DNA of 64,000 bases, taken from Lachnospiraceae bacterium. Its GTDB lineage: Bacteria > Bacillota > Clostridia > Lachnospirales > Lachnospiraceae. Positions 28,727-35,524 of this stretch are shown here, piece after piece. Both the position numbers and the translations under genes were made by a program. Numbering within the stretch: position 1 is the stretch's first letter; each line of letters begins with the position of its first letter. The stretch is taken from the NCBI GenBank assembly GCA_018384375.1, contig JAHAYJ010000093.1, positions 1-64,000 of the forward strand, written 5' to 3'. The notes beneath the pieces are model-generated. The model did no database searches. It had not been told where the DNA came from and was given only the letters and a program-made list of their open reading frames with translations.

Positions 28727-29006
28727 GTACAAATGCTTATTGCACCGGCCGGATGAAACTCAAAGCCGGTGGTGGAATCTATGTGTAAGGAACAATTCGG
28801 AAACGGGGCGTAAAAAATCAACCCGCGCAATGAAAAATAAAGCTCTCAGACTTTACCTGTTCGAAGCGAAGCGAGTTTAAAGTCTGAGAGCTGTTTTTAT
28901 TTTTCATGCGCGGATTAGATTTTTCTTGCCCCGCTTTCCGTGTGACGAGCACATAGATTCCACCACCGCTTTTCAAACAGTCATCCGGACAATGGCATTA
29001 TTGTAC
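28727..29006. repeat. 280-bp imperfect long palindrome between convergent genes
   Basis: Two arms of about 130 bp (28727-28855 and 28876-29006) are imperfect reverse complements. Shared blocks read on both strands include AGTACAA, CCGGATGA, GGTGGTGGAATCTATGTG, a CGGGGC run, CCGCGCA, ATGAAAAATAAA and CTCTCAGACTTTA. The loop is about 20 bp (GTTCGAAGCGAAGCG). The innermost stem is flanked by T-rich runs on both strands and can terminate both the C39-like gene and spoVT. It fills most of the 411-bp gap, and the small open frames within it look non-coding. It could be a MITE-like element or a structured RNA. Confidence 0.8.
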
Positions 29007-29031
29007 TTGTTGTTTATGGAAGGTACTTTAA

Positions 29032-29577
29032 TTACTGCTCCATCTGTCTTCCCAGAAAGCCTGCTGCGGATTGCAGGAGCTTCTGCTCCACCTCTCCCAT
29101 TTTCCCTTTTTCCCCATTATCAATCAAAATCACTCCACCAATCATATCTCCTTCGCAGATAATCGGATAGATCGCCTCCTGTGTAAATTCATCGGTGACG
29201 TCCTGCGCAATCGGTATAAAATTCGCCTCGCCTTTCGAAGCAATGACAATCTCACGCTTACCCAACCGTTCCTCAAGCTCCCTGCTGATAGACTTCCCGA
29301 GAATGCCTTTGTATCCGCCTGATACTGCTATAAACTGGTCTCTATCTGCAATCAATGCTGTTCTACCCGATGCCTGCGCAAGACTTTCCGCATACTGTTT
29401 AGCAAAGGTGCTCATCTCACCGATCGGAGAATATTTCTTCAGGATGATCTCTCCCTCTCTGTCTGTAAATATTTCCAGCGGATCCGACTCTCTGATGCGG
29501 AGCGTCCGCCTGATCTCCTTTGGAATGACAATACGGCCCAAATCATCTATCCTACGCACTATGCCTGTTGCTTTCAT
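29032..29577 (-). CDS. spoVT: Stage V sporulation protein T-like regulator
   Basis: Transcription regulator of 181 residues. An N-terminal AbrB swapped-hairpin DNA-binding domain (MKATGIVRRIDDLGRIVIP, residues 1-50) is followed by a GAF-like sensor domain (about 55-178). This is the SpoVT architecture; in Bacillus it tunes sigma-G dependent forespore genes. CGGAGG precedes the ATG, and a sigma-G-like promoter lies about 75 bp upstream, matching the known forespore control of spoVT. It ends beside the long palindrome, which probably provides its terminator. This is one of the clearest signs that the organism sporulates. Confidence 0.95.
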   Translation of the reverse strand: MKATGIVRRIDDLGRIVIPKEIRRTLRIRESDPLEIFTDREGEIILKKYSPIGEMSTFAKQYAESLAQASGRTALIADRDQFIAVSGGYKGILGKSISRELEERLGKREIVIASKGEANFIPIAQDVTDEFTQEAIYPIICEGDMIGGVILIDNGEKGKMGEVEQKLLQSAAGFLGRQMEQ

Positions 29578-29648
29578 TTTCCTTATTTTTCCTCCGTTAT
29601 CTTATACATGATTTCGATTTATAGATTCCAAATCATTGGATATGGAGT

Positions 29649-29677
29649 TAGTATGTGGAAAATTGGTAATAATATTC
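29649..29677 (-). promoter_or_regulatory. Sigma-G-like promoter of spoVT
   Basis: GAATA at 29677-29673, a 17-bp spacer and CATACTA at 29655-29649. These match the Bacillus sigma-G pattern GnATR / CATnnTA. No good sigma-A box was seen in the same gap. Confidence 0.6.
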
Positions 29678-29788
29678 GCAGTATGTTCACGAAATATCTG
29701 CCCGACTATATTCTGAAAATTCATGTTTATTAAGCGTAGACTCTCCAATCTGCCTTGCCCCTATCATCAGCGTAAGTTTCTTGTAAAA

Positions 29789-31672
29789 CTAATTTTCCTG
29801 AAGCTCTTCCAAATCTGTCTCCGTCTCCAGCATTCTCTCCAATAAGGTTTCCTGCTTATGTTCCTCTTCCTCTATCTGTTTCTGCAGTTCCATCAGCTTC
29901 TGATAATCTGATGCAAGTGCCGGATCCAAAAGCTGCATCTTCAGTGAAGCTGTGTTTTCCTCACTCTCTGCCAGCTGGTTTTCATATTTTTCAAGCTGTT
30001 TTACCAGTCTGGATTTTATTTTCCCCGGATTGTAATAGGTTTTTTTATCAAATACGTCCTGTAAGGTAGGTTCCTGCCGTTCCGGCTTTTTGTCCGGCCG
30101 CTTAACATCTGTCTGATCAAATTCCAGAATTCCGGTAGCCACCTGCTTTACAAAATATCTGTCATGAGAGACAAACAAAACAGTTCCCGGAAAACCGAGC
30201 AGCATCTGCTCCAATGCTTCTTTCCCCGGCAGATCCATATGATTTGTGGGTTCATCCAAGATCAAAAGATTCGGTCTTGTCTGGAACATCTTGCACAGGG
30301 CCAGTCTCACCTTCTCTCCTCCGGAAAGCTGCCCCATTTTCTTCATCACTTCCTCCTGGGAAAACAGAAAGCTTCCCAGGGCGCTCCTTATTTCCTCACG
30401 AAGCAGCTTCGGATATTCTTCCCAAAAATTGTCAAGAACCGTCTGTTCCGGATCTGCATCATTCACCACCGCTTTTTGCTGGTCAAAATATCCCCACTCT
30501 ACATTGGGACCGAATGTGAAGCTTCCGCCTAAGGGTTTTATCATGCCGACCAGCGTTTTCAGCAACGTGGATTTTCCCTTTCCGTTTTCGCCAATAATTG
30601 CAAGCCGATCCCCCTTTTTCAATTCAAAGGATATCTGACTTAATTCTTTATCGTAACCGATTTTTAAATTTCTGACAGACAATACATCCGTATAGCTTTC
30701 TATTCTCGGCGTAAACATGGCATGAAAGGTTTTTGTGTCAAAACGTCTGGGCTTTTCTATTTTAACCATATGTTCAATGGCCATTCTCTTTGAGCGTGTG
30801 GCAGCCACCTTTGTAGGTGTATTTTTCCATTTCTCAATCCAGTCATTCAGACGCTTTATTTCCTTTTGTTGCTCCTCATAGTCCTTTGTCTGTTTGATCA
30901 GATTTTCTTCCTTCTGCTTCAAAAAAGCAGTATAATTGCCGGGATATCTTTTCAGTTGATGATATTCTATCTCATAAGTCACATCAATGACTCTGTCCAG
31001 AAACATCCGGTCATGGGAGACAATGACCACAGCCTTGTCATAATTTTTTAAATACTCCTCCAGCCACTCGATCGTTGGCAGATCCAGATGGTTTGTCGGC
31101 TCATCCAGCAGCATAATATCCGGTCTGCCAAGCAGCAGCTTGATGAATGCCACCTTTGTCTGCTGCCCGCCCGAAAAGCTTCCGATCGGACGTTTCAGAT
31201 CCTCTAACGGGAATCCGAACTGCTGAAACATAATCTCCATATCCCTGCGCCAGGTATAGCCTCTTTGTGCCTCCATCCTTTTTTGCAGATTATCATATTC
31301 GTATAGCAGCTCCGGAGTTTCTTCTCCCCGGTGAAGTGCCTGTTCAATTTCTGCCATTCTTTCCTCACAGGCAAAAACAGATGCAAAGGTCTTCCTGATT
31401 TCTTCCTCCACCGTAATTTCTCCGTCGGTAAAGCTGACCTGCCGCAGATAACCTATTTCCTGCTTTCCCGCCATCACAATTCCGCATTCCTCGTCGCTAT
31501 CCGGATTACTCATTTTGATGTCCCCTGCAATCAGCTTCAATAATGTAGTTTTACCACAACCGTTTCTACCTACTACTGCAATTTTTTCTTTATCATGAAT
31601 TTCAAAATTCACATCCTCCAGTATGGTATCTGCAGCATATTGTACCAACGCATGTTTGATCTGATATCTCAT
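29789..31672 (-). CDS. ABC-F family ribosome-associated ATPase
   Basis: Protein of 627 residues with two ABC domains and no membrane segments. The first domain has GRNGCGKTT, SFSGGQQTK and IMLLDEPTNHLD. An interdomain linker follows with basic/Trp-rich LNDWIEKWKNTPTKVAATR, then a second domain with GENGKGKST, LSGGEKVRL and LLILDEPTNHMD. A C-terminal coiled coil covers about residues 555-625. ABC-F proteins bind the ribosomal E site and either help stalled translation or protect from antibiotics. The gene follows rsgA by 18 bp and shares its attenuated promoter. The housekeeping YdiF-like type is more likely than a dedicated resistance factor, but sequence alone does not decide. Confidence 0.92.
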   Translation of the reverse strand: MRYQIKHALVQYAADTILEDVNFEIHDKEKIAVVGRNGCGKTTLLKLIAGDIKMSNPDSDEECGIVMAGKQEIGYLRQVSFTDGEITVEEEIRKTFASVFACEERMAEIEQALHRGEETPELLYEYDNLQKRMEAQRGYTWRRDMEIMFQQFGFPLEDLKRPIGSFSGGQQTKVAFIKLLLGRPDIMLLDEPTNHLDLPTIEWLEEYLKNYDKAVVIVSHDRMFLDRVIDVTYEIEYHQLKRYPGNYTAFLKQKEENLIKQTKDYEEQQKEIKRLNDWIEKWKNTPTKVAATRSKRMAIEHMVKIEKPRRFDTKTFHAMFTPRIESYTDVLSVRNLKIGYDKELSQISFELKKGDRLAIIGENGKGKSTLLKTLVGMIKPLGGSFTFGPNVEWGYFDQQKAVVNDADPEQTVLDNFWEEYPKLLREEIRSALGSFLFSQEEVMKKMGQLSGGEKVRLALCKMFQTRPNLLILDEPTNHMDLPGKEALEQMLLGFPGTVLFVSHDRYFVKQVATGILEFDQTDVKRPDKKPERQEPTLQDVFDKKTYYNPGKIKSRLVKQLEKYENQLAESEENTASLKMQLLDPALASDYQKLMELQKQIEEEEHKQETLLERMLETETDLEELQEN

Positions 31673-31690
31673 TTTACCGTACTTACCCTT

Positions 31691-32710
31691 CTATCTTTTT
31701 CTTGACATATCTCTTCTTGCTCTGCCAATTTTTTTCATCATGATCTGTTTTCTCTCTTTGGAAAATACTTCCTCCCGCAGCATATCCCGGTAGGTCTTCC
31801 ATCGCTTTGGGGAGAGCGTTCCATTCTCCAGAGCCGCACGGATTGCACAGCCCGGTTCGTTCCCATGACTGCAGTCAGAGAACCTGCAGCGACTTATCAG
31901 CTCTTCTATCTCTTCAAAAGAGATTTGCAGTCCCTGCTCCACATCACTGACAACCAGCCTCCTGATTCCGGGTGTATCAATAATACGCCCGCCACCTGAC
32001 AGCACTGTTCCGTCGGGCAATGTAATTTTTTCCGGAAGAAACATACACTGCTTATAGGTTGTTGTATGGCGCCCCTGTGCATCTGCTTCCCGGATATCGC
32101 CTGTTAACATCTCATTCCTTCCCATCAATGTATTTACAAGAGATGATTTTCCCACCCCGGATGAACCTAATAGAACGATAGTCTTTCCTTTTTCAAAGAA
32201 GCGTGCCATTTCCGCAATTCCCTCTCCCGTAACGGAACTGATGCAAAATACATCAATACCGGGAGCAACTCTGGATATCTGCTGCAGATATTCAGACACA
32301 TCTTCGCACAGATCCACCTTGGTCAAGACAATGACAGGTGTTGCCCCGCTTTGCCAGGCAACCGTCAAATATCTTTCCAGTTTCGAAATGTGAAAATCCC
32401 GATTTAGAGACATGGTAATAAATACAAAATCAAAATTTGCCGCCACCGCAAGATCCGACTGCCCCTGAGTTGCATTCAGACGCATAAATACAGATTTTCT
32501 CGGCCGGACTTCGGTAATCAGGCTATCTCCGTTTTCATTGTAAGTGATCTCCACCTCATCTCCAACTGTGGGAAACGCAATTATCTCATTTGCATGATAG
32601 AAATTTGCTGTCTTTAATCTACCATATAGTTTCTCATTTCCTGCTAATAATTCATATCTTTCCCTGTGCACTGCCATAACAGTTGCAGTTTCATAATTAC
32701 TCTGATTCAT
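31691..32710 (-). CDS. rsgA: Ribosome small subunit-dependent GTPase A
   Basis: Circularly permuted GTPase of 339 residues that matures 30S subunits. It has an N-terminal OB-fold, then G-motifs in permuted order: VLTKVDL (G4), GSSGVGKSSL (G1), a T-rich switch (GRHTTTY) and DTPGIR (G3). A zinc-binding C-terminal region follows (CRFSDCSHGNEPGC). I start at the ATG at 32710 (MNQSNYETATVM); an upstream in-frame extension would read through the leader region just after the attenuator and lacks a ribosome site. The leader upstream carries a small coding sequence and a terminator, so expression should respond to translation status. The ABC-F gene is downstream in the same operon. Confidence 0.94.
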   Translation of the reverse strand: MNQSNYETATVMAVHRERYELLAGNEKLYGRLKTANFYHANEIIAFPTVGDEVEITYNENGDSLITEVRPRKSVFMRLNATQGQSDLAVAANFDFVFITMSLNRDFHISKLERYLTVAWQSGATPVIVLTKVDLCEDVSEYLQQISRVAPGIDVFCISSVTGEGIAEMARFFEKGKTIVLLGSSGVGKSSLVNTLMGRNEMLTGDIREADAQGRHTTTYKQCMFLPEKITLPDGTVLSGGGRIIDTPGIRRLVVSDVEQGLQISFEEIEELISRCRFSDCSHGNEPGCAIRAALENGTLSPKRWKTYRDMLREEVFSKERKQIMMKKIGRARRDMSRKR

Positions 32711-32771
32711 TGTTTTCTCTCTTATCCTCTTCTTTTCTCTTAGTTGCAAGTAAATTTGATCCGCGATTGCA

Positions 32772-32805
32772 TAAAAAAAGCGTGGCATCCTTTTGAATAC
32801 CACGC
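32772..32805 (-). terminator. Attenuator terminator between leader peptide and rsgA
   Basis: Minus strand: GCGTGGTATTC, loop AAAA, GGATGCCACGC (11 bp with two G-U pairs), then seven T. It lies 33 bp after the leader stop and about 60 bp before rsgA. A 9-base pair of complements flanks it: GATTGCATA (32872-32864, in the leader frame) and TATGCAATC (32773-32765). These could form an alternative fold. Confidence 0.85.
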
Positions 32806-32837
32806 AAATCAATCTGTAAATAGAATCATGAGTTTCC

Positions 32838-32912
32838 TTATCTATCCATAAACGAGGTAATCCTATGCAATCTTCTGTTGTTCTTATTCCTATTCTTAAT
32901 CGTCGTCATCAT
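32838..32912 (-). CDS. Leader peptide of the rsgA-ABC-F operon (24 residues)
   Basis: A short frame starting ATG-ATG at 32912 behind an excellent ribosome site (AGAAGGAGG, 7-base spacing) and ending TAA at 32838. The peptide begins MMTTIKNRNK and is rich in Asn, Arg and Lys, with paired Asn-Asn and Arg-Arg. It follows a consensus promoter and precedes a strong terminator, the arrangement of a ribosome-mediated attenuator. Its ribosome-site stretch GAGGTAATTC (32922-32913) is complementary to GGATTACCTC within its own frame, so the unread RNA can hide the start. It is too short to be found by length filters. That it is translated and regulatory is inference, but three independent signals agree. 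Confidence 0.75.
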   Translation of the reverse strand: MMTTIKNRNKNNRRLHRITSFMDR

Positions 32913-32964
32913 GAATTACCTCCTTCTCTCAAAATTTGTTTACAAAAATTTCCTCTACCTGCAC

Positions 32965-32994
32965 ATCATAAGACTGACCCATATCATTTGTCAA
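32965..32994 (-). promoter_or_regulatory. Consensus promoter of the leader-rsgA-ABC-F transcript
   Basis: TTGACA at 32994-32989, an 18-bp spacer, TATGAT at 32970-32965. It lies in the 116-bp gap between the MATE stop and the leader peptide. Confidence 0.8.
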
Positions 32995-33028
32995 CTGTTT
33001 TCTACCCTCTTCCTTTTCGTTCAGTTCC

Positions 33029-34372
33029 TTATGCGTTGAGGCTCTGCATCCATTTTTTTCTTTTTAGCACGATCAGGGATATCCCGAACCGGATACACTC
33101 CTCCAGAGAAAGAATAAAGTAAACATAGGGAATTGACAGCTCAAGCACAAACGCTGCCAAAAGTCCGAGAGGAACACCAAACAGCCAGGTGCCGATCAGA
33201 TCGATCAGCATCACGTATTTGGTCCTTCCACCGCTCCTGATGATTCCGCCGCCTACGATCATATTCTGTACCTTAAACGGTGCAATCACTGCATAGGCGA
33301 TCAAGATTTGTTTCGTCAGGTGCTTTACCGACTCCTCTACCTGATAAAGCGCCACATAGTATGACCTGGTAAGGACAATGAAAACGGAAAGCAGCAATGA
33401 ACCGGCAAAACCGTAAAAAATCAGTTTTTTGGCGTCCTGATAGGCTCTCTCATATTCCGCCTTTCCAAGTGTCTTTCCGATAAGCACACCGGCAGCCTGA
33501 GATAATCCGCACAGAGCGCCGATCATCAGTCCCTGAACGGGATTGATCAGGGTCATAGCCGCGCATGCCTCTGTACCCAGGTGCCCGTAAATCCCGGCAT
33601 AAATATTTTCACCAAGACTCCACATCAATTCACAGACAAGCACAGGCAACAGCATGGATGCATATTGCATCCAGTCAAAACAAGTATGATCTTTCTCTCT
33701 GCCTGTCTCCTTTTGCAGACACTCCCTGTATTTCAATAGTAGCAGAAGCATCAGCAAAAAGTTTGCCGCTTGTGACACTGTCGTTGCAATTGCTGCGCCT
33801 TCCGCTCCCATTGGTGCGATGCCAAGCTTCCCAAAAATCAATATGTAATTTAGCCCTGTGTTTAAAAATGCTGCAAGGATGCTGGCATAAAGAGGAAGAG
33901 AAGCCTTTTCCATGCATCGGAACAAGGTTGACAGCAAGGTTGCACCGGCAATGGGAAGAAAGGTTCCCGCAAGGATCGTAAGATAGCCGGCGGCAGTCAG
34001 CAGCGTTGCCTCATCCTGTGTGTAAAGCCACATAATCTGCCTGGGAAAAGCAATGCACAATACCGTAAAAATACCTGCCAGCCCGATTGCAATGATCAGA
34101 TTTACAAAAAAGCTTCTTCTGACCTCCTGTTTATTTTTTTGTCCCATATATTGTGAGATCATGATTCCTGCAACCGCACCGATTGCAGAAGCCAGCACAG
34201 AAAAAACCGAAGAAAACTTTCCTGCCAGCCCAACACCTGCAACGCTTACGCTGCCGAGCTGTCCGATCATAATCTGATCAATGATACTGAAGGATGCCTG
34301 AAGCATGGATTGCAGTGCTACCGGAACGGCAAGATTACACACTGTCCTGAAAAAGCTCTTTTCTTGTTCCAT
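33029..34372 (-). CDS. MATE family efflux transporter
   Basis: Twelve-helix cation-drug antiporter of 447 residues from the chosen start. MEQEKSFFRTVCNLAVPVAL is the typical cytoplasmic start and first helix, and the internal duplication of six plus six helices is evident (SFSIIDQIMIGQLGSVSVAG in the first half, AGIYGHLGTEACAAMT in the second). The ATG at 34372 follows TAGGAGGT; a longer frame upstream runs through the promoter. It has its own promoter and no good terminator before the next promoter. Substrates are unknown; the family exports cationic drugs, dyes and flavins. Confidence 0.92.
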   Translation of the reverse strand: MEQEKSFFRTVCNLAVPVALQSMLQASFSIIDQIMIGQLGSVSVAGVGLAGKFSSVFSVLASAIGAVAGIMISQYMGQKNKQEVRRSFFVNLIIAIGLAGIFTVLCIAFPRQIMWLYTQDEATLLTAAGYLTILAGTFLPIAGATLLSTLFRCMEKASLPLYASILAAFLNTGLNYILIFGKLGIAPMGAEGAAIATTVSQAANFLLMLLLLLKYRECLQKETGREKDHTCFDWMQYASMLLPVLVCELMWSLGENIYAGIYGHLGTEACAAMTLINPVQGLMIGALCGLSQAAGVLIGKTLGKAEYERAYQDAKKLIFYGFAGSLLLSVFIVLTRSYYVALYQVEESVKHLTKQILIAYAVIAPFKVQNMIVGGGIIRSGGRTKYVMLIDLIGTWLFGVPLGLLAAFVLELSIPYVYFILSLEECIRFGISLIVLKRKKWMQSLNA

Positions 34373-34403
34373 CGTGATACCTCCTAAAAATATCTGCAGC
34401 TTT

Positions 34404-34432
34404 ATTGTATCCCGAACCCTACACAAATTCAA
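34404..34432 (-). promoter_or_regulatory. Promoter of the MATE gene
   Basis: TTGAAT at 34432-34427, a 17-bp spacer, TACAAT at 34409-34404; the ATG at 34372 is about 30 bp further on. Confidence 0.7.
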
Positions 34433-34449
34433 AGGTTAAACGCATAACC

Positions 34450-34500
34450 CATCACAAAAATAAGACGCATTGTTTGTGCATAACTTACAAACAATGCGTC
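34450..34500 (-). terminator. Terminator of the fucose-isomerase/LacI operon
   Basis: Minus strand: GACGCATTGTTTGT, a 9-base loop, ACAAACAATGCGTC (14 bp perfect stem), then TTATTTTTG. It begins 14 bp after the lacI-family stop. Confidence 0.85.
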
Positions 34501-34513
34501 CTCATGATAAATG

Positions 34514-35524
34514 CTAATTTGGAGCAATACCGGTACTCTCACGCTCGATCAATGTTACCGGCAGCATAACGGTCGTTTCAATTTCCTTTTTTTCCTTCAA
34601 TTCCCGCAGCTTTTGAACAGCAATTTCTGCCCTCATGGCAACATCCTGCTTTACTGATGTAAGCGTGGGGGAAATCAGGCTGCACATGGGCGTATCATCA
34701 AATCCCGCGACCGAAATATCGCCGGGAACAGAAATACCCTGCTTCGTCAAAAAGTGGATCATTTCCACTGCATAAAAATCCGAGACAGCAAAAATTGCCG
34801 AATAGCTTCTCAGTCTGCTAAGGTTTTTAAGATAATAATCCTCACGCTCCTGTTTTTGCATGGGAATCAACATAAAATCCGCATATTCCCTGCCAAAGCC
34901 TTCACAAAATCCCTCGAAACGCTCCTTATCCACACAGACCTGATTATCCGAAATACACAAGCCCCGGCGGTGTCCCTTTTGCCTGAAATAGCTTCCTACC
35001 TGATAACCGCCGTCGTAGTTGTTGATCGTTATATTATAAATTCGCTCCGCCTGGTCACAGTAGCCATCATATACGACAAAGGGAATCCGCATATGGCTCC
35101 TCAGATACATATAATCCTGGTCACAGAACCCGATCAGTACCAGTCCATCCATATTCCACATGGAAGCAAATTTGATGATCTCTTCCGGATCGGTGGTTTT
35201 CTTTACCATCATGAACTGGCCATTTTTTTCAAGCTCTGTAGAAAGACTGTTGAGAGAAGAGGCAATAAACACATCCTCTAACGTATGCGATTCATACTTT
35301 TCATGATCATTGACGACAACACCAATAATTCTGGAGGAATTCTGAGCCAGCAGGATTCCCGCCATGCTGGGGATATATTGCCTTTCCTCCAAAAGAACCT
35401 GTACTCTTTTGACCGTTTCATCGGATATCTTCCTGGTTTTCCCATGCAGTACATTTGACACTGTTGCAGTGCTGAGTCCCAGTTCCTGTGCAATGTCAGA
35501 GATCCTAACCCGCTTATCCTCCAT
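34514..35524 (-). CDS. LacI family transcriptional regulator
   Basis: Sugar-responsive DNA-binding protein of 336 residues. The N-terminal helix-turn-helix and hinge are VRISDIAQELGLSTATVSNV and an HGKTRKISDETVKRV stretch. A periplasmic-binding-protein-like effector domain follows (about 60-336), with the dimer/effector hallmark DISVAGFDDTPMC. The ATG at 35524 has GAGAGGT upstream and lies 14 bp after the fucI stop. It is last in the five-gene sugar operon and most probably regulates it in response to a pentose, fucose or ketohexose intermediate. No clear palindromic operator was located by eye. Confidence 0.92.
   Translation of the reverse strand: MEDKRVRISDIAQELGLSTATVSNVLHGKTRKISDETVKRVQVLLEERQYIPSMAGILLAQNSSRIIGVVVNDHEKYESHTLEDVFIASSLNSLSTELEKNGQFMMVKKTTDPEEIIKFASMWNMDGLVLIGFCDQDYMYLRSHMRIPFVVYDGYCDQAERIYNITINNYDGGYQVGSYFRQKGHRRGLCISDNQVCVDKERFEGFCEGFGREYADFMLIPMQKQEREDYYLKNLSRLRSYSAIFAVSDFYAVEMIHFLTKQGISVPGDISVAGFDDTPMCSLISPTLTSVKQDVAMRAEIAVQKLRELKEKKEIETTVMLPVTLIERESTGIAPN

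Follow-up and report, generated by a model that had tools for sequence, protein, structure and literature searches.

In Bacillus subtilis, the leader of bmrB-bmrCD is reported to be induced by chloramphenicol, erythromycin and lincomycin, a response for which translation is needed; the bmrB ORF has 53 codons, the terminator lies inside it, and the target is a multidrug ABC transporter (PMC4191407). The account of the hflXr/rli80 locus of Listeria describes an accessory paralogue of a ribosome-associated GTPase, from the HflX family of ribosome-splitting factors, behind a small ORF of 14 codons with an RLR motif and a terminator; induction was lost when the start codon of the leader was altered (PMC6310831). 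In the WblC/WhiB7 regulon of Streptomyces, the RsgA paralogue pair SCO6149 and SCO5211 is reported among the WblC-activated genes and the paralogues of these genes, together with acetyltransferases, ABC transporters and HflX (PMC7157823). The leader attenuators of ARE ABC-F genes, as described for msrD, provide drug-dependent control of an ABC-F gene (PMC10314930).

The locus described here lies in the window, by which we mean the whole 64,000-nucleotide stretch of Lachnospiraceae DNA that was analysed. Like bmrB-bmrCD, as reported, it combines a leader ORF with a terminator and alternative folds, and in the bacterial family 15 of the 42 matches to its leader are followed by ABC exporters. Unlike bmrB, the leaders ahead of RsgA2, an accessory RsgA-family GTPase, mostly have 20-29 codons with the terminator downstream (in the window it starts 32 nt past the stop of the leader ORF), the proposed switch strand is a stretch of the ORF complementary to the leader's own ribosome-binding site (SD), i.e., an anti-SD, and the other large target group is RsgA2. 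With hflXr/rli80 it shares an accessory GTPase paralogue behind a small ORF and a terminator, while the RLR arrest motif of HflXr and macrolide leaders is absent from the window leader. The kinds of genes are much like those reported for the WblC regulon, which is controlled by a transcription factor, whereas RsgA2 is predicted to be controlled by a leader peptide. In contrast to msrD, the first gene is rsgA2, and an ABC-F gene follows in few loci. With bmrB-bmrCD and hflXr as experimentally tested precedents, the class of mechanism is known; the target, the breadth and the logic of an anti-SD with two partners are, as far as our searches go, new. Among the matches listed from open-access PubMed Central, which leaves subscription journals mostly uncovered, no leader or attenuator ahead of rsgA was recognised, and no described role for RsgA2 was found.

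The leader and its conservation

All parts of the locus are on the minus strand, and the order given in the initial annotation (promoter, ribosome site, 24-codon ORF, terminator, rsgA and ABC-F gene) was recovered in full. The promoter, TTGACA-18-TATGAT (32965..32994), agrees with the consensus at 11 of 12 positions and is kept in the aligned leaders. It is followed by the SD GGAGGTAAT (32915..32923), whose GGAGGTA columns are invariant (n=11 sequences), and by the leader ORF (32838..32912), which has 24 codons and a stop, specifies the peptide MMTTIKNRNKNNRRLHRITSFMDR, and is conserved in frame and stop position. Within this ORF, the anti-SD ATTACCTC (32854..32861) codes for Ile-Thr-Ser and has two partners: the SD at 32922-32915, and the 5' arm of the terminator (T5; 32795..32805), which is thus also the proposed antiterminator partner. 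The intrinsic terminator (32773..32805) consists of a stem at 32805-32780 with 11 pairs (6 G-C) and a 4-nt loop, followed by seven T at 32779-32773. A short ORF with a ribosome site therefore stands between promoter and terminator, and the terminator is conserved before the target. Downstream are rsgA2 (PF03193; 31691..32710) and, starting 18 nt after its stop, the ABC-F ATPase gene (29789..31672). The same strand carries spoVT (29032-29577) about 210 nt behind the ABC-F gene, and a MATE exporter gene (33029-34432) that ends 34 nt before the promoter.

Scans of the window alone were barely above shuffles, the promoter scan being at chance level (4 sites vs 5.5 expected) and the terminator scan weak (3 vs 1.7 expected), so that relatives were needed to decide; both elements are counted as real because they are conserved there. 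Every one of the nine RsgA2 loci at 58% identity or above (the window, L003-L008, L015 and L044) has promoter, SD, ORF and terminator. These nine were aligned with the RsgA2 locus L137 and with L228, an acetyltransferase gene of a genus mate, and in all 11 leaders an exact TTGACA, 17-18 nt from a -10-like hexamer, precedes the ribosome site, as judged by eye. In this alignment 98.4% of the cells of the SD:anti-SD and terminator helices are paired. Covariation of the stems, a check proposed in the initial annotation, is seen: changes on both sides occur in 6 of 17 leader pairs, compared with a shuffle mean of 2.0, and 0 of 500 shuffles were as high. The covariation is mostly in the terminator helix, with 100% of cells paired and both-sided changes in 5 of 9 counted pairs, the SD:anti-SD helix contributing one such pair.

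Two alternative folds had been suggested for the window. The pairing of the leader ribosome site with an inner stretch of its own ORF is confirmed, and it is conserved in the relatives. The other, a 9-base pair flanking the terminator, which we take to be GATTGCATA/TATGCAATC (32872-32864 with 32773-32765), exists in the window and is absent from the aligned relatives; moreover, transcription must already have passed the U tract before its 3' half exists. It was rejected as the antiterminator, which is most likely formed by the anti-SD of the ORF with the terminator 5' arm.

A covariance model of the leader, R1, was run on the loci of 161 RsgA2 genes and 28 canonical rsgA genes. It was accepted at 44 of the RsgA2 loci, 10 being seeds, and matched none of the 28 canonical loci at E<=0.01 or up to E 0.1. 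The cut-off of E<=0.01 also gives 44 RsgA2 loci; the accepted set omits L153, whose leader looks unlike the others, and includes L173 (E 0.012), and weaker matches up to E 0.1 (L087, L047, L074, L141 and L143) were left uncounted. By peptide, L141 and L146 resemble further R1 members. In a tree on which the R1 label of these two loci was set by eye, the R1 leaders are split between two RsgA2 groups that a different leader type keeps apart, a pattern that needs at least four gains or losses. The covariance model was used in place of a degenerate pattern, GGAGGTA-N38-68-TTACCTC, which was rejected since its matches (in 98 of 397 genomes, mostly chance by sight) were comparable to the control counts. 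A small-ORF search was kept out of the counts, its ribosome-site rule having been so strict that many leaders were missed.

A second class of leader, with peptides of about 10 codons such as MTVYREVIET and MKKLEMVICN, precedes other RsgA2 genes (L045, L046, L048, L049, L053-L055, L059, L063, L065, L082, L131 and others). A CCTTTCGTGAA-like motif was found in 14 of 117 loci without an R1 leader, and its CCTTTC could pair with the SD of the second-class leader.

The leader ORFs were compared in 45 RsgA2 rows, including the doubtful L153. The anti-SD is in codon frame 0 in 44 of them (43 of 44 without L153), a count somewhat inflated because the script favoured start codons with T-S in frame. The stop codon lies exactly 13 nt after the anti-SD in 38 (37 of 44 without L153), T-S or T-P occurs after residue 8 in 41 of the peptides, and the SD:anti-SD pairing beats composition shuffles (p<0.05) in 44. 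An ACCTC core is present in the anti-SD of most leaders. Conservation extends to the ribosome site, the start, the T-S codons and the position of the stop, and the N-terminal residues vary. Of the features that the initial annotation proposed to check in relatives, frame and stems are conserved and the N-terminal peptide codons are not; the Asn/Arg/Lys-rich N-terminus of the window leader is not a conserved trait. The codon test is weak, with a mild synonymous excess (224 vs 152.6 expected, of 795 changes, from related pairs and with most changes at position 2). With variable N-termini and a weak codon test, it is the SD, start, frame and stop, not conservation of the peptide, that suggest translation of the leader ORF.

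Pairing of the anti-SD and predicted folds

The pairing with T5 and the folds were analysed in 44 RsgA2 rows, with L153 in and with L192 left out because its peptide has no T-S. In 43 of the 44, the anti-SD outranks the other leader windows tested as a partner of T5, and it beats shuffled anti-SD windows (p<=0.05) in only 29. Of 29 R1 matches ahead of other genes, L255 and L263 (no SD) and L262 (no start) had been dropped from the comparison of leader ORFs. Of the 27 other rows in that comparison, the 16 that entered the T5 pairing were those with T-S, L261 and L265 being lost as they have no terminator. These leaders ahead of other genes fit less well, the anti-SD ranking first for T5 in 10 of 16.

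The duplexes reveal one core whose extension differs between groups: the window group has UACC:GGUA, the distant group CGGU:ACCG. The anti-SD of the distant group pairs with T5 of the close group at a mean of -10.3 kcal/mol, compared with -9.4 and -10.9 for the cognate pairs, whereas the window-group anti-SD pairs poorly with distant-group T5 (mean -5.3 kcal/mol); cross-pairing between the groups is not specific in one direction. Minority letters number 4 in T5 vs 18 in its stem partner (seven columns, 11 sequences), as expected if T5 serves two partners. In the same 11 sequences the anti-SD:T5 pairing has 0 compensatory double changes, 126 of 500 shuffles are as good on cells paired, and the pairing fails in L007.

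Folds were predicted for three ribosome states on nascent RNA up to the terminator loop, with a mark of at least 4 expected pairs. In the window without a ribosome, SD:anti-SD has 10.8 expected pairs and anti-SD:T5 0.0; the latter rises to 7.3 with a ribosome on the start and is 0.0 with a ribosome at the stop. Among the 44 RsgA2 leaders, SD:anti-SD is predicted in 41 without a ribosome, and anti-SD:T5 in 38 with a ribosome on the start and in 0 with a ribosome at the stop, the six that miss the mark being L005, L007, L135, L137, L151 and L209. The corresponding numbers for the 16 other leaders are 13, 10 and 1. When the letters of T5 were shuffled (43 leaders, without L153 and L192), 168 of 860 sequences (20%) reached 4 pairs vs 37 of the 43 real leaders; taken leader by leader, at most 1 of 20 T5 shuffles was as good in only 26 of 43. 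By prediction, then, the leader has a mutually exclusive antiterminator. At equilibrium, the finished terminator of the window wins in every state (with a ribosome on the start, T5:T3 11.0 and anti-SD:T5 0.0). Thus the switch must be kinetic, with antitermination occurring before the terminator 3' arm is made.

Proposed mechanism and alternative explanations

We propose, with a probability of roughly 0.75, that the window leader is a ribosome-mediated transcription attenuator in which the anti-SD of the ORF acts as the switch strand. The proposal builds on the parts observed, their conservation, the covariation of the terminator, the best-partner relations and the folds predicted for three states. 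Very probably, a conserved attenuator senses how ribosomes behave on a decoy ORF, and it is an accessory RsgA that it controls; the suggestion, made from the window alone, of a translation-sensing leader and attenuator before an RsgA-family GTPase is supported, with conservation across many species.

In the proposed mechanism, the anti-SD could take as partner either the leader's own SD or the terminator 5' arm. With no ribosome on the leader, the SD would hold the anti-SD, the terminator would form, and rsgA2 would be off. During normal translation, a ribosome at the stop 13 nt downstream would cover the anti-SD, and the terminator would again form. A ribosome held at the start or first codons, where drugs that block initiation or early elongation could hold it, would hide the SD and leave the anti-SD bare. 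The bare anti-SD would capture the emerging T5, and RNA polymerase would read into rsgA2 and, in the window, the ABC-F gene. This would be a compact switch logic, in which a single strand reports whether the leader is empty, is being translated normally or carries a ribosome held at the start. Transcription presumably does end at the leader terminator, and the inducing signal may be a ribosome-stalling drug. The start-codon result reported for hflXr agrees with the prediction of this model (PMC6310831).

Alternatively, the C-terminal T-S(-V) codons might be a drug-sensing arrest site, so that a stall there, rather than an early one, gives read-through. The recurrence of T-S or T-P and of a single frame (41 and 44 of 45 leaders) is in keeping with such a site, and known arrest peptides for other drugs are sequence-specific, as reported for the RLR motif of hflXr (PMC6310831). 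However, we regard this as unlikely, given that a ribosome occupying the nearby stop is predicted to mask the anti-SD while the terminator can still form (anti-SD:T5 in 0 of 44 folds), that the need to pair with the SD already dictates ACC-TC, and that three leaders ahead of PF09818 genes read the anti-SD in another frame. Sensing of a shortage of amino acids or charged tRNA instead of drugs, in the manner of trp and his leaders, is more doubtful still: the general anatomy is the same and several leader N-termini are rich in Lys, Asn or Arg, but no single-codon run is conserved among the leader peptides, most of the annotated targets encode exporters or RsgA2 and some encode acetyltransferases, biosynthesis genes not being seen among them, and the window gave 0 matches to Rfam leaders or riboswitches (e.g. 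T-box) at the gathering score.

Leaders of the erm and cat type work by translational attenuation (see also PMC4191407), and the leader might likewise gate the ribosome site of rsgA2, with the hairpin secondary. To this we give marginally less credence again, since a U tract follows the conserved hairpin, which is situated about 70 to 400 nt before rsgA2 in 7 of the 9 close loci (the script missed L005 and L015), with an intervening sequence that differs in length. The idea of chance, in which the hairpin would terminate transcription of the upstream MATE gene and the ORF would be accidental, can draw on the near-shuffle level of the pattern scans and on the short distance from that gene to the promoter, yet is highly improbable, since promoter, SD, frame, distance to the stop and the two helices are all conserved across many species.

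If the leader is an attenuator switched by its anti-SD, its recurrence before RsgA2 relatives and ABC exporters suggests that these genes are turned on when ribosomes are blocked, e.g., by antibiotics. The control region of RsgA2, a widespread paralogue, gives the protein a testable role in resembling those of drug-response genes, and the leader is shared with ABC exporters in the same bacterial family, the Lachnospiraceae. RsgA2 may be a ribosome-protecting or ribosome-rescuing GTPase. We tentatively suggest, at a little under even odds for the whole, that antibiotic-induced RsgA2 protects or rescues ribosomes on the 30S side as a counterpart of HflXr, and that Lachnospiraceae have an undescribed translation-stress regulon, with the anti-SD leader as its common switch, comprising RsgA2, acetyltransferase-RsgA2 fusions, acetyltransferases and ABC drug exporters. 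If drug-induced, the system would amount to a stress response common to gut commensals and involving a gene likely to be annotated as a housekeeping GTPase.

RsgA2, the ABC-F gene and other genes behind the leader

The product of the window rsgA gene matches PF03193 (146.7 bits; cut-off 30) and TIGR00157 (153.6 bits; cut-off 100), and is below the cut-off of PRK12288 (170 vs 360). A canonical rsgA, 34% identical to the window copy over residues 46-322, is located on another contig of the source genome. Judged by its sequence, the window gene is an accessory paralogue (RsgA2); the view of rsgA as first target thus holds for an RsgA-family GTPase, but not for the housekeeping copy. A quick tree built from 80 sampled proteins separates 12 canonical (rsgA1) from 68 RsgA2 sequences (SH-aLRT 100), and the window protein does not group with the rsgA1 of the same genus. 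RsgA2 was found in 3 of 37 genus genomes (E below 1e-80), and in 55 of 397 family genomes and 94 of 392 order genomes (E<=1e-50). The records of six named relatives with 62-73% identity are Roseburia or Lachnospiraceae metagenome assemblies. In some RsgA2 proteins, which are about 530 residues long, a fused acetyltransferase (GNAT) domain precedes the RsgA part: Pfam found PF13508 and PF00583 in the L132 fusion, and in L192 only the GTPase part and generic NTPase matches (E<=0.001). Stand-alone GNAT genes (L228 and L245) likewise carry the leader. The only PADLOC matches were of the ATPase/GTPase kind and have no bearing on the leader question. RsgA2-like proteins with 38% identity occur in L010, L011 and L013 (records: Gammaproteobacteria, Vibrio and Cohaesibacter), where R1 had no match up to E 0.1.

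The ABC-F protein of the window is above the cut-off of NF000355, ribosomal-protection-like ABC-F (458 vs 380 bits), any resistance being putative, and far below that of OptrA (NF000514; 563 vs 1450 bits); its best-scoring solved structures are YheS and EttA. Where at least 900 nt were available behind rsgA2 and matches of at least 100 bits were required, an ABC-F gene followed in 4 of 158 loci, the window included; a weaker match of 70.9 bits at the end of L057 is under this threshold. Close relatives of the window ABC-F were found in 4 of 37 genus genomes (E<=1e-120), and the gene also occurs without RsgA2. Being rare behind RsgA2 and patchy in the genus, ABC-F was rejected as a conserved co-target and rides on the switch only locally, so that the initial pairing of rsgA and ABC-F as the target does not extend beyond a few loci. 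In a sister genome (L286; G023:C19) compared with window positions 28901-34600, the ABC-F gene is present (97% identical protein), the MATE gene is in parts, the promoter, the leader and most of rsgA2 are missing, and two aligned pieces overlap by 14 nt. Because neighbouring genes also show gaps, these losses suggest decay or an assembly error.

In 397 family genomes, R1 gave 42 matches in 36 genomes, and in 295 order genomes 19 matches in 16. Of the 42 family matches, 13 are ahead of RsgA2, in one case (L135, genome G325) with a 142-codon ORF between leader and gene, and the 15 ABC exporters have PF00664, one of these genes being cut short (L241). The remaining next genes are an ABC ATPase of exporter size (L261), four PF09818 ATPases, an acetyltransferase (L245), an NFACT-type gene (L233), an IS605 TnpB gene (L239) and a small ORF (L232); among the 29 non-RsgA2 matches, L254 and L259 are cut by contig ends and L255, L262 and L263 are spurious. 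The leaders of the PF09818 ABC-ATPase genes (L235, L238, L247 and L249) are related, with the anti-SD in another frame in three of the four (LPR, not T-S), while L249 reads A-S. In L233 (genome G180), the R1 leader is 437 nt upstream of an NFACT_N gene, which we take to belong to the family of the ribosome quality-control factor RqcH. In L239 (genome G148), an R1-type leader with MKTSV precedes the IS605 TnpB gene, perhaps through an insertion behind a leader.
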